From: Frigoribacterium sp. MEB024
Lineage (GTDB): Bacteria > Actinomycetota > Actinomycetes > Actinomycetales > Microbacteriaceae
Length of the DNA: 64,000 nt
Reading direction: 5' to 3'
NCBI RefSeq assembly: GCF_000878135.1
Contig: NZ_JXQZ01000002.1
Span: 1 to 64,000, forward strand
The notes beneath the pieces were generated by a model, which was not told the DNA's origin, did not search any database, and saw only the letters and a program-made list of their open reading frames with translations. A program made the translations under genes and the position numbers. Shown here in pieces: positions 61,403-64,000 of the stretch (its first letter is position 1; each line of letters begins with the position of its first letter).

Positions 61403-62215
61403 TCAGATGCCGGCCTCGACGACGAGGGTCGCGAGGTCGTGGGCGATGCTGGGAGCCGCGACGAAGGTCATCGATTCGCTGGGTGCCTCACCGACCTCAC
61501 CTCGGACGACGGCGCCTGCCTCGACGGCCACGAGCGCACCCGCCGCGTGGTCCCACGGCTTGAGTCCTCGCTCGACGTAGGCGTCCACCCGTCCCGCCGC
61601 GACGGCGCAGAGGTCGAGCGAGGCAGCCCCCAGGCGCCTCAGGTCACGGACGCGTCCGACCACCCGGACCAGCGCCTCCGCGTGTTCGACACGGCGGGCG
61701 GCGTCGTACGAGAACCCGGTCGCCAGCAGGGCCTGTTCGAGGGAAACCGGCGCGGCGACCCCGAGACGACGCCCGTCCAGCCACGCACCGCCGCCGGCCG
61801 ACGCCGTGAAGGTCTCGCCCGACATCGGGTTGGCGACGACCGCCGCGAGGGCGCGCCAGGCGAGCGGATCGGGACCACCCTCGACGACGGCGATGCTGAC
61901 GGCCCACTGCGGGATGCCGTAGAGGAAGTTGACGGTGCCGTCGATGGGGTCGACGACCCAGGTGAGACCCGTGGTCGAGTCGTCGGGTTCGCCTTCTTCG
62001 CCGAAGAAGCCGTCGCCGGGACGCAGCTCGGCCAGACGACCCCGGACGTACGTCTCGACCTCACGGTCGGTGTGCGTCACGACGTCGACGGCACTGCTCT
62101 TGGTCTCGGCGACCTCGACCCCCTCGGATCGGCGACGGGCCGCCAGCGCGGCGGCCTCACGCGCGACGACGACGGCGATCTCGAGCAACTCGGCGGGGGT
62201 CGGGGTGACGGACAC
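61403..62215 (-). CDS. Inositol monophosphatase-family protein
   Basis: This 270-residue enzyme has the two metal-binding signatures of the family, FFGEEGEPDD with WVVDPIDGTVNFLYG, and KPWDHAAGALVAVEAG. It removes phosphate from inositol-1-phosphate or related compounds such as histidinol phosphate or fructose-1,6-bisphosphate. The GTG at 62215 follows an AGGAGG sequence. Downstream lies the M23 gene, on the same strand across 272 bp. Confidence 0.88.
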   Translation of the reverse strand: MSVTPTPAELLEIAVVVAREAAALAARRRSEGVEVAETKSSAVDVVTHTDREVETYVRGRLAELRPGDGFFGEEGEPDDSTTGLTWVVDPIDGTVNFLYGIPQWAVSIAVVEGGPDPLAWRALAAVVANPMSGETFTASAGGGAWLDGRRLGVAAPVSLEQALLATGFSYDAARRVEHAEALVRVVGRVRDLRRLGAASLDLCAVAAGRVDAYVERGLKPWDHAAGALVAVEAGAVVRGEVGEAPSESMTFVAAPSIAHDLATLVVEAGI

Positions 62216-62246
62216 GGGTCCTCCTGGGGGTGAGGCGCCCGGAAAC

Positions 62247-62279
62247 GCAAGAACGGACTCGACGAGCGAGTCCGTTCTT
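62247..62279 (-). terminator. Terminator after tRNA-Tyr
   Basis: A perfect 14-bp stem (CAAGAACGGACTCG with its complement) and a 5-base loop lie 12 bp after the tRNA gene. Confidence 0.75.
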
Positions 62280-62291
62280 GAGGGGCAACCG

Positions 62292-62373
62292 TGGCAAGTG
62301 AGGGATTCGAACCCCCGAAGGCTACGCCGGCTGATTTACAGTCAGATCCCTTTGGCCGCTTGGGTAACTTGCC
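62292..62373 (-). tRNA. tRNA-Tyr (anticodon GTA)
   Basis: The 82-base class II tRNA has acceptor GGCAAGT/ACTTGCC. The anticodon loop CTGTAAA gives GTA, a long variable arm lies around GCCGGCGTAGCCTTC, and the T-loop is TTCGAAT. Confidence 0.95.
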
Positions 62374-62485
62374 ATGCACGCCCAGCCCGTGTGATCACCG
62401 ACCGGAGGCGCCAGACAAATATACAGCCTCCCGAGCCCCCTCACGACCACTGCCCCGCAGCGCCCCACCCCGCCGCCCCACCCCG

Positions 62486-62501
62486 GTGTGCAAATCGCGA
62501 C
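62486..62501 (+). repeat. Left arm of 16-bp inverted repeat around the AbiEi/DUF559-like gene
   Basis: GTGTGCAAATCGCGAC here is the exact reverse complement of bases 63882-63897. A C-rich stretch precedes it on the outer side, matching a G-rich stretch beyond the right arm. Confidence 0.85.
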
Positions 62502-62558
62502 GACGAGCCGCCGACCCGCCGCTGTTCGGTGGTGCGACAGGCCATTCCGCAACCGGAT

Positions 62559-62603
62559 GGTCGGGTTCGGCACCCCGTGAGCGGTTCGGGAGGTCGGGTT
62601 CGG
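62559..62603 (+). repeat. Two 12-mer sites 33 bp apart, left of the AbiEi/DUF559-like gene
   Basis: GGTCGGGTTCGG occurs at 62559-62570 and 62592-62603, a 33-bp step. It is the reverse complement of the sites on the right side of the gene (63684 onward). The 353-bp gap 62374-62726 otherwise holds only the left arm of the inverted repeat. Confidence 0.75.
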
Positions 62604-62726
62604 CCCGCACCCCCAGCCAGGGCGCAGACACCTTTTCGTCTCCCCCACAGCGGTCTCGACGTTCTCGTCCTCCACATCGACCGTCGCGCAGCATTTCGGC
62701 TCTGCCGTCACGACGAAGCTGCTCAC

Positions 62727-63596
62727 ATGACTCCCCTCGTCGCGGCCACCGTACGGCGCCTGGGCTCCCTGGCCCATCGGCGGGAACTGCTCGCGACCGG
62801 ACTGACCCGACGCCAGGTGGAGTCCTCCTGGCGCGCCGGCGAGATCCTTCGCATCCGGCACGGGCTGTACGGGCTCGTCGACCTACCCGTCGACGTCATC
62901 CGGGCTGCACGGGTAGGAGGCGCGTTGGCGGGAGCCTCGTCGCTCACGCACCGAGGCGCATGGGTCCCCCCTGGACCACGATTGGTCGTTTCCGTCGACC
63001 ACAACGCCCGCGACCTCAGGGACCCGGACGATGCCGGCTCGCGACTCGATCGTGACCGCGACGACGTGCTCGTCCTCCGCGACCTGTCCCGGTTCGATCG
63101 CCGGACGGAACGGCTGCTGGCATCCCCGAGCAGGGCGGCGGCCCAGGTCCTGCTCCACGAACCAGCTGAGCACGCGGCAGCCATGGTCGACTCCGCCCTC
63201 CGGCTGGCCCCGATGCAGCGACCCGACCTCGACGAGGTCTCACGCCTCGTGGCGACGCGACGCTCGGCTCAAGGCCTCGTGACCATGATCGACCCCAGGG
63301 CCGAGTCCGGGACCGAGTCCATGGCGCGCCTCCTTCTCGCTCGTGACGGCATCCATGCCGAGCCTCAGGTGTGGGTCGACGATCACACCCGCGTCGATCT
63401 GTTGATCGACGGTTGGTTCGTGCTCGAATGCGTGAGCAAAGAACACCATTCCTCGCCTGCTCATTACAACCGGGACCGTGAACGGATCGTCCACATCACC
63501 GGCCTCGGCTTCGTCGTCCTCGAGGTCACGTACCCGCAGGTGCTGTTCGATTGGCCTGCGGTTCGCCAGGCCGTCCGAATGACCCTGGGGCGTTAG
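62727..63596 (+). CDS. AbiEi-like antitoxin/DUF559 endonuclease-like protein
   Basis: This 289-residue protein has an AbiEi-type winged-helix N-terminus (AHRRELLATGLTRRQVESSW, then ILRIRHGLYGLVDLP) joined to a C-terminal DUF559/Vsr-like nuclease fold. The latter shows RVDLLIDGWFVLEC and a late GLGFVVLEVTYPQVLF. In most relatives the core reads EVDG; here it is ECVS, so activity may be lost or changed. No AbiEii toxin lies nearby. The ATG at 62727 has a possible -10-like GAAGCT six bases upstream. Codon use looks slightly less GC-rich than neighbours. The gene is enclosed by inverted and phased repeats. Confidence 0.7.
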   Translation: MTPLVAATVRRLGSLAHRRELLATGLTRRQVESSWRAGEILRIRHGLYGLVDLPVDVIRAARVGGALAGASSLTHRGAWVPPGPRLVVSVDHNARDLRDPDDAGSRLDRDRDDVLVLRDLSRFDRRTERLLASPSRAAAQVLLHEPAEHAAAMVDSALRLAPMQRPDLDEVSRLVATRRSAQGLVTMIDPRAESGTESMARLLLARDGIHAEPQVWVDDHTRVDLLIDGWFVLECVSKEHHSSPAHYNRDRERIVHITGLGFVVLEVTYPQVLFDWPAVRQAVRMTLGR

Positions 63597-63683
63597 CCCG
63601 GTCGACCTCTCTCGTCTCGTCCGTCGGCGCGTCCCCCGTCGTCGACGCGACGGGCGCAGCTGCGGCGCCACCCTCCGTGCGGG

Positions 63684-63858
63684 CCGAGCCCCACCCCGCC
63701 CCCTCACCGAGGCAGGTCGAACCCGACCCCGGCCGCACCGAGTCGGTCCGAACCCGACCCCGCCGGCCCACCGGGGCGGGCCAATCCCGACCTCACCTAC
63801 TCGGCGCGCCGAGCCAAACCCGACATGTCTCGGCCTCGCACCACGCCGGACCACGACC
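63684..63858 (-). repeat. Phased 12-mer array right of the AbiEi/DUF559-like gene
   Basis: Sites related to CCGAACCCGACC start at 63684 (10/12), 63717 (11/12), 63748 (exact), 63781 and 63814, with a weak one at 63847. Steps are 33, 31, 33, 33 and 33 bp, about three helical turns. One spacer contains the palindrome CTCGGCGCGCCGAG. This looks like a cooperative protein-binding array. Confidence 0.7.
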
Positions 63859-63881
63859 TGCCGGCGTGTCGACGCGCAACT

Positions 63882-63897
63882 GTCGCGATTTGCACAC
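63882..63897 (-). repeat. Right arm of the 16-bp inverted repeat
   Basis: GTCGCGATTTGCACAC is the exact reverse complement of the left arm at 62486-62501. The arms enclose 1,412 bp. Confidence 0.85.
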
Positions 63898-63929
63898 GGG
63901 CAGAGGGGGGGCGGGCGGGGGGCGTGCGG

Positions 63930-64000
63930 CTACTGGACGGCGGAGGTGAGGCGTGCGACGTTGTCGAGGACCTTCGAGCGGAAGGGGCGCACCAGCCAGT
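63930..64000 (-). CDS. C-terminal end of a possible cardiolipin synthase
   Basis: A minus-strand frame enters at the window edge and ends in TAG at 63930-63932. It encodes WLVRPFRSKVLDNVARLTS plus three more residues. The pattern Arg-Pro...Leu-Asp...Arg-Leu-Ser near a C-terminus resembles the end of phospholipase D-type cardiolipin synthases, but 22 residues are too few to be sure. Confidence 0.35.
   Translation of the reverse strand, partial: WLVRPFRSKVLDNVARLTSAVQ

Follow-up and report, generated by a model that had tools for sequence, protein, structure and literature searches.

A Vsr-like nuclease gene and dispersed inverted-pair repeats in Frigoribacterium: a candidate REPIN-RAYT-like system

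The window analysed here is a stretch of 64,000 nucleotides from Frigoribacterium sp. MEB024 (contig NZ_JXQZ01000002.1, positions 1 to 64,000). Towards its end, 1.4 kb lie between the arms of a 16-bp inverted repeat and hold one gene, whose product consists of an AbiEi-like winged-helix head and a nuclease domain of the EDxHD/Vsr type. With a probability of about 0.68, this locus belongs to a two-part system similar to the REPIN-RAYT systems, as the copy that bears the gene, with an unrelated nuclease as the helper. REPINs are paired repetitive extragenic palindromic (REP) sequences, and RAYTs are the REP-associated tyrosine transposases that accompany them (PMC3116915, PMC8266576, PMC8049555). 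In Frigoribacterium, the gene is linked to its repeat, the repeat is dispersed over the genome as pairs at near-constant spacing, motif type and protein clade match within the genus, and both gene and elements are present in some relatives and absent from others. With the gene between copies of its own repeat, scattered copies elsewhere and different repeats around related genes, gene and repeat have the look of two complementary parts of a single mobile system.

Repeats and the gene within and beyond the genus

The 16-mer is the head of a dispersed repeat family. Its 15-base core occurs 29 times in the window genome (3.4 Mb, 136 contigs; up to 2 mismatches), and the reversed control pattern was found 0 times. 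Most copies lie outside the 1.4-kb box with no such gene alongside. The architecture was established from 20 places read out and from sites scored in these and further stretches. Most copies follow one plan: motif A, a spacer that frequently contains a CGACACGCCG stem (judged by eye), and an inverted B site at 71-73 bp. Many continue with tandem B sites about every 33 bp. At two places (L005, L018) the nearest scoring B site is 105 bp off, and at two others (L026, L038) the copies are reduced to A-B-A. Solo copies have a single head each and are far shorter than the gene-bearing copy. A close gene was found only at the window locus; the four other related genes in this genome are distant paralogs with 30-35% identity. 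The original prediction had proposed a self-contained mobile cassette or a single-gene defence or addiction unit, and neither proposal was supported in that form: most repeat copies are gene-less. A single cassette bounded by the 16-mer was rejected, since the 16-mer heads short elements that mostly lack the gene. A 16-mer widespread without the gene had been named in advance as an outcome that would refute the prediction. It does occur in this way, yet it is abundant chiefly where the cognate gene is present, a pattern better matched by a REPIN-RAYT-like arrangement.

This association was followed in 16 Frigoribacterium genomes (a close ortholog being a match at E<1e-60). Nine have a close ortholog, one per genome, and all nine orthologs lie beside tRNA-Tyr. 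The window motif, type T1, stands on both flanks in 5/16 genomes (G000, G002, G008, G010, G013). The orthologs of G003 and G015 are flanked by type T3 (GCAAATGCCGAC) and those of G001 and G011 by type T4 (a ATTTGAGAG-type motif), and the motif type matches the protein clade. T1 copies number 30, 27, 44, 22 and 39 in the five T1 genomes, in the order given, and 0-5 in ten genomes without a T1 gene. The repeats belong with the gene, as had been expected: they are scarce in 10 of the 11 other genomes, with G014 (25 copies) as the exception. T3 copies number 55 in G003, 45 in G015, 29 in G011, 22 in G012 and 21 in G001, and 4-7 in the remaining 11 genomes, where reversed controls gave 1-5. T4 copies number 18 in G001, 13 in G011, 12 in G015, 6 in G003 and 3 in G012, and the other 11 have 0. 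A further motif, T2 (GTCGGCAACTCCTG), has 9-59 copies in each of the 16 genomes (controls 1-5) and several genes per genome. Among 24 loci of distant paralogs, nine have significant flanking repeats; the motif is T2 at eight of them and a different one at the ninth.

A search for an empty site in strains that lack the gene had been suggested. The tRNA-Tyr site is vacant in 6/16 genomes (G004, G005, G006, G007, G009, G014), and the unit is therefore polymorphic. Depending on the species, this site (L074-L089) is either vacant or occupied by one of three gene/repeat types. In G012 (L086) the occupant is a short element with T3-like ends and no gene.

The feature of the element that stands out is the motif pair and its spacing. 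In G003 (1.197 Mb), 43 T3 motifs form 19 convergent pairs, and 18 of the 19 are exactly 69 bp apart; that the 12-base ends are identical throughout the aligned T3 set follows from the selection of copies. RNAalifold kept only the outer 12 pairs, which had been fixed beforehand by selecting exact motif matches. Element content differs even among close relatives, as syntenic blocks show. G008 has one T1 element that G010 and G013 lack. G000 and G008 share a second, of which G010 has a part and G004 nothing. A third occurs in G013 and, as two tandem copies, in G008, but not in G010.

The link between gene and repeat was also found in other genera. One motif was written from the flanks of the gene in three genomes (G203, G044, G202) and searched for in 27. 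It has 93 copies in G203, 78 in G044 and 7 in G202, and 0-5 in the other 24 genomes (controls 0-1); four copies in each of the three are the gene's own flanks. A second motif, written from the flanks in three genomes of another family of the class (G360, G284, G248), was searched for in 18. It has 126 copies in G360, 51 in G284 and 11 in G248, 2 in G306 of the same genus, and 0-2 in the other 14 genomes (controls 0-3). Sizeable populations were thus present in 4/6 expected genomes. Among the places listed, the pairs are 68-69 bp apart in G203, mostly 81 in G044 and mostly 43 in G360.

The gene itself is widespread in the family. Of 199 Microbacteriaceae genomes sampled, 128 (four of them Frigoribacterium) have it at a profile E<=1e-20, as do 63 of 85 genera; at E<=1e-12 it was found in only 16 of 296 genomes of the phylum. 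Flanking repeats were assessed by comparing the best inverted repeat between the 400-bp flanks with 200 shuffles (p<=0.01), with duplicate rows (L233, L245) and genus rows (L127, L128) excluded. Significant repeats flank 16/33 loci in the genus, 17/27 in the family (loci outside the genus, among the 128 genomes with matches) and 13/26 in a phylum-wide sample (9 Microbacteriaceae loci and 17 from other families), or 46/86 in total. Control genes, drawn only from Frigoribacterium blocks and with open frames >1500 bp excluded, passed in 9/172 cases (Fisher p 1e-11 for the family, 4e-8 for the phylum sample). Significant inverted repeats thus bracket roughly half to two thirds of the genes tested outside the genus. 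Each of these genes has a motif of its own, and the same gene family lies between different motifs in many genera. Outside Microbacteriaceae, 8 of the 17 loci had 0/100 shuffles scoring as high. At several loci each flank is a complete element of 60-110 bp with its own inverted pair.

Several results weigh against a gene and repeat that form one system. In G014, 25 T1 copies occur although there is no close gene and the tRNA-Tyr site is vacant (L088); they are perhaps an orphan repeat population that remained after gene loss. No gene of the T3 flank type was found in G001, G011 or G012, nor one of the T4 type in G003, G012 or G015, although these genomes still carry copies of the respective repeat. 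Repeats can therefore exist without their gene. Branch support for T4 is modest (84/89). Two of the six expected genomes were weak in the motif searches, namely G248, with 11 copies, and G202, which does not count as a success because four of its 7 copies are the gene's own flanks. A significant inverted repeat was absent from 40/86 gene loci, and the control genes come from a narrow source. Motif and protein similarity are weakly linked over the 52 loci with p<=0.02 (rho 0.12; 25/999 permutations as high), and below a relative score of 0.6 the link is not significant (146/999). In oriented T3 elements the internal hairpin showed no covariation (179/500 shuffles pair as well), and a conserved internal hairpin as the recognised structure was rejected. 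No clear target-site duplication was seen in empty-site alignments, which are too diverged to place the edges. For the nuclease domain, Foldseek on its own had nothing at E<=0.001 (3r3p at E 0.012, probability 1.00).

The persistence of repeats without the nuclease gene in several genomes would also suit a different mover. Another enzyme, a RAYT or an insertion sequence, might move the repeats, with the nuclease gene as a hitchhiker inside them, and palindromic repeats elsewhere have been linked to Y1 transposases (PMC3116915). Against this, the gene family lies between different motifs in many genera, and the motifs read from its flanks have populations in 4/6 expected genomes. A canonical RAYT as the mover was rejected: the E. 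coli RayT query gave 0 matches in 1.9 Mb from six Frigoribacterium genomes, although this was less than whole genomes and a single distant query (P0001 served as positive control). This explanation is quite unlikely. Could the repeats instead be due to chance, or be ordinary terminator-like repeats of GC-rich intergenic DNA? The genus does have another abundant 14-mer, 9/172 control genes pass the flank test, and the 12-mer by itself is more frequent outside the unit than expected. The near-constant pair spacing, the 0-3 matches per genome of reversed control patterns and the two motif searches in other genera contradict this idea, which is scarcely credible.

The locus in the window and its protein

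The features of the locus are collected in Table 1. The whole unit corresponds to the interval that a relative (G004) lacks. The perfect 16-bp inverted repeat, the C-rich and G-rich outer flanks and the phased 12-mers in opposite orientation on the two sides had all been described in the original prediction, and all were found as described. Of 2000 dinucleotide shuffles of the segment, one had a perfect inverted repeat of 16 bp in the corresponding end regions. The two left-hand B sites face five on the right, which are spaced 33, 31, 33 and 33 bp apart and accompanied by an extra overlapping site at 63723; a weaker site with 3 mismatches lies at 63847. With up to 2 mismatches, the segment has 8 such 12-mer sites, against a shuffle mean of 0.7 and a maximum of 4. 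The 12-mer alone is unspecific: it has 60 matches (<=2 mismatches) window-wide where 24 are expected, and 52 of the 60 lie outside the segment. An alignment by eye shows the 16-mer (GTGCAAATCGCGAC core) and the 12-mer (GTGCCGAACCCGAC) to be versions of a single motif. On either side, the outer motif and the nearest 12-mer are convergent and about 72 bp apart. CGG flanks the unit at both ends, a candidate target-site duplication; solo copies have one head each and offer no second end for comparison. Of known RNA families, positions 61500-64000 contain tRNA only.

Table 1. Features of the nuclease locus and its surroundings (positions in the window)
Feature	Position	Strand	Remarks
Whole inserted unit	62474..63929		interval lacking in relative G004 (38 bp there); alignment stops at 62473 and resumes at 63930
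C-rich outer flank	62460..62485		from the sequence; imperfect inverted match taking in 63898-63923
Terminal motif A, left (GTGTGCAAATCGCGAC)	62486..62501	+	inverted-repeat search; member of the dispersed family
B site 1	62559..62570	-	inverted relative to A, 72 bp from A; A-to-B distance shared by most other copies
B site 2	62592..62603	-	33 bp beyond B site 1
Gene for AbiEi-like winged-helix head and EDxHD/Vsr-like nuclease, 289 amino acids	62727..63596	+	
Right-hand B site closest to the gene	63684..63695	+	2 mismatches
Right-hand B site	63717..63728	+	1 mismatch
Right-hand B site	63748..63759	+	exact
Right-hand B site	63781..63792	+	2 mismatches
B site closest to the right terminal motif	63814..63825	+	about 71 bp from that motif; 2 mismatches
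Terminal motif A, right	63882..63897	-	inverted-repeat search
G-rich outer flank	63898..63923		from the sequence
tRNA-Tyr adjoining the site, outside the unit	62291..62373	-	

The single gene had been read as an AbiEi head with a DUF559/Vsr-like tail, and this description held: the protein matches AbiEi_4 (E 3e-4) and REase_MTES_1575 (E 2e-4), both under the Pfam cut-offs. Among the relatives, AbiEi_4 is above the cut-off in four (L146, L147, L045, L130) and DUF559 passes in several proteins. MTES_1575 is above its cut-off in 0/15 scanned proteins, and one relative (L231) had no match. The suggestion of a homing-type nuclease is supported by the structure model, in which the nuclease domain has the fold of the homing endonuclease I-Bth0305I and Vsr (matches to 3r3p and 1cw0). 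The candidate active-site residues E197, D224, E234, H241 and D250 are invariant in 7 sequences, four of which are 25-35% identical to that of the window. Across 7 ortholog pairs, the ratio of nonsynonymous to synonymous substitution rates is 0.11-0.26, which indicates a gene under purifying selection. No family in PHROGs or NCBIfam was matched by the window protein.

A role in regulation has to be considered for such a protein. The repeats could be operators, and the protein mainly a transcription factor for itself and for repeat-adjacent genes, with the nuclease secondary. AbiEi and Rv2827c autoregulate via inverted repeats (PMC7319586), and phased arrays suit the binding of several molecules together. 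The gene, however, has repeats on both sides; an element lies within about 100 bp after an apparent stop codon at two of three aligned sites (as read without annotation); the five acidic or histidine residues of the nuclease core are invariant in the 7 sequences; and element content varies even between close relatives. Regulation as the main role is unlikely. A defence or addiction role appears very unlikely. In such a role, incoming DNA or the chromosome would be the target of the nuclease, and the repeats would serve to protect, titrate or mark self. PADLOC points in that direction through its AbiEi models, and for one relative (L147) through further weak matches to homing-endonuclease, DpdF and PDC models; a Vsr-like domain has also been described in a study of conflict systems (PMC3710099). 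For the window protein itself, AbiEi models are the only PADLOC matches, the site is vacant in 6/16 relatives, and G014 retains 25 repeats without the gene. The toxin that accompanies AbiEi in classical AbiE had been noted as missing. No DUF1814 toxin gene lies in the inserted unit, which holds one gene, a result that covers the unit and not its neighbours. A full AbiE operon was accordingly rejected, as the unit has no second gene.

A proposed mechanism and known systems

In the proposed two-part system, each type would consist of a scattered population of short inverted-pair repeats and one nuclease gene flanked by the same repeat. We infer that the nuclease protein binds, cuts and mobilises the repeats. 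The AbiEi-type winged helix would bind the motif, and a dimer or higher complex would bridge the motif pair at its near-constant spacing (72 bp here; 69, 81 and 43 bp in other types). The EDxHD/Vsr-type domain might then nick or cut at the bridged pair, after which repair or strand transfer would copy, move or turn over the element. The repeats would thereby spread in trans, and the gene would remain at a fixed place as a domesticated helper, as RAYTs are thought to do with REPINs. Known proteins offer precedents: the EDxHD enzyme I-Bth0305I is reported to act as a dimer whose target spans nearly 60 bp (PMC3943268), and paired inverted repeats are bound by AbiEi proteins (PMC7319586).

The system shares several features with REPIN-RAYT (also called REPtron or TnpA-REP): dispersed inverted-pair repeats at near-constant spacing, a helper gene flanked by its cognate repeat (significantly so at 46/86 loci, not at every locus), repeat types that follow the protein within the genus, and a single-copy helper for T1, T3 and T4. 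It differs in its helper, which is a winged helix with an EDxHD/Vsr-type nuclease (Pfam AbiEi, MTES_1575, DUF559) and not a Y1/HUH tyrosine transposase. A conserved internal hairpin had no support in the one type tested (T3). Because the enzyme is not a Y1 transposase, the system is not filed as a member of REPIN-RAYT, although it would work like one. With AbiEi antitoxins of type IV AbiE it shares the winged-helix domain, but it has a nuclease tail and no toxin gene in the unit. The fold of the catalytic domain is that of I-Bth0305I, Vsr and MTES_1575 restriction endonucleases; unlike these, the gene is free-standing between its own repeats and has a dispersed repeat population. Like miniature inverted-repeat transposable elements and other non-autonomous transposons, the elements are short, have inverted ends and are polymorphic among relatives. 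Unlike them, the unit has no transposase gene or clear target-site duplication, and its gene-less copies are much shorter.

On a broader reading, this would be a second, unrelated class of bacterial repeat-and-helper system. A domesticated homing-type nuclease, fused to an antitoxin-type DNA-binding domain, would replace the RAYT and maintain private paired repeats in each genome by cut-and-repair, with gene and motif co-diverging across Microbacteriaceae and other families of the class. The balance of evidence tilts slightly towards this view. A literature search, with preprints and most subscription papers outside its reach, returned, among the papers listed, no account linking such a nuclease with dispersed repeats. 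The CGTC superfamily of palindromic repeats is described as having no associated transposase gene (PMC3733652), so repeats that lack a known helper had been described before. A puzzle of REPIN-RAYT is that the repeats persist though the helper gene makes no copies of itself. Finding this layout with an unrelated enzyme would show that selection keeps the layout and not the transposase chemistry, and would offer a practicable comparison. A role could then also be assigned to a gene family that is widespread but of unknown function, several dispersed repeat families would be accounted for, and the many natural pairs of protein and DNA motif that the system may supply could serve studies of specificity.

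Further observations on the repeats

One T1 element (L159, G008:C1:246544-246832) is in tandem duplication with a period of about 183 bp, and in G044 (C4, C15) two or three elements occur in succession at some places. The listed T1 copies are widely spread. The listed T2 repeats are mostly clustered where the distant-paralog genes lie (for instance G001:C1:959-1045 kb, and G004:C5:352-473 kb and 1090-1178 kb). A 9-mer stem, GACACGCCG/CGGCGTGTC, recurs within different repeat types in the flanks of 16/55 loci from several genera (29 occurrences, against 2.0 expected from shuffles). It is as though one common inner module had been combined with various end motifs.

One genome has insertion sequences inside the repeats, a point to be set beside REPIN-RAYT. 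In G360:C1 (L266-L269), two different insertion sequences of about 1.65 kb lie between repeat arms, each at 2/4 places, and the one searched (L266) is of the IS110 family (Transposase_20 E 5e-22). ISPpu9 of Pseudomonas is an IS110-family element as well. It is reported to lie in REP sequences (PMC8450116). A more abundant 14-mer family of the CCCGCGCCTCCTCG / CCGAGGAGGCGCGG type occurs in G003:C2 (L278-L337) and near elements in L156-L187. Its commonest 14-mer has 110 copies in 1.2 Mb, and similar sequence is found beside repeats and at empty sites.
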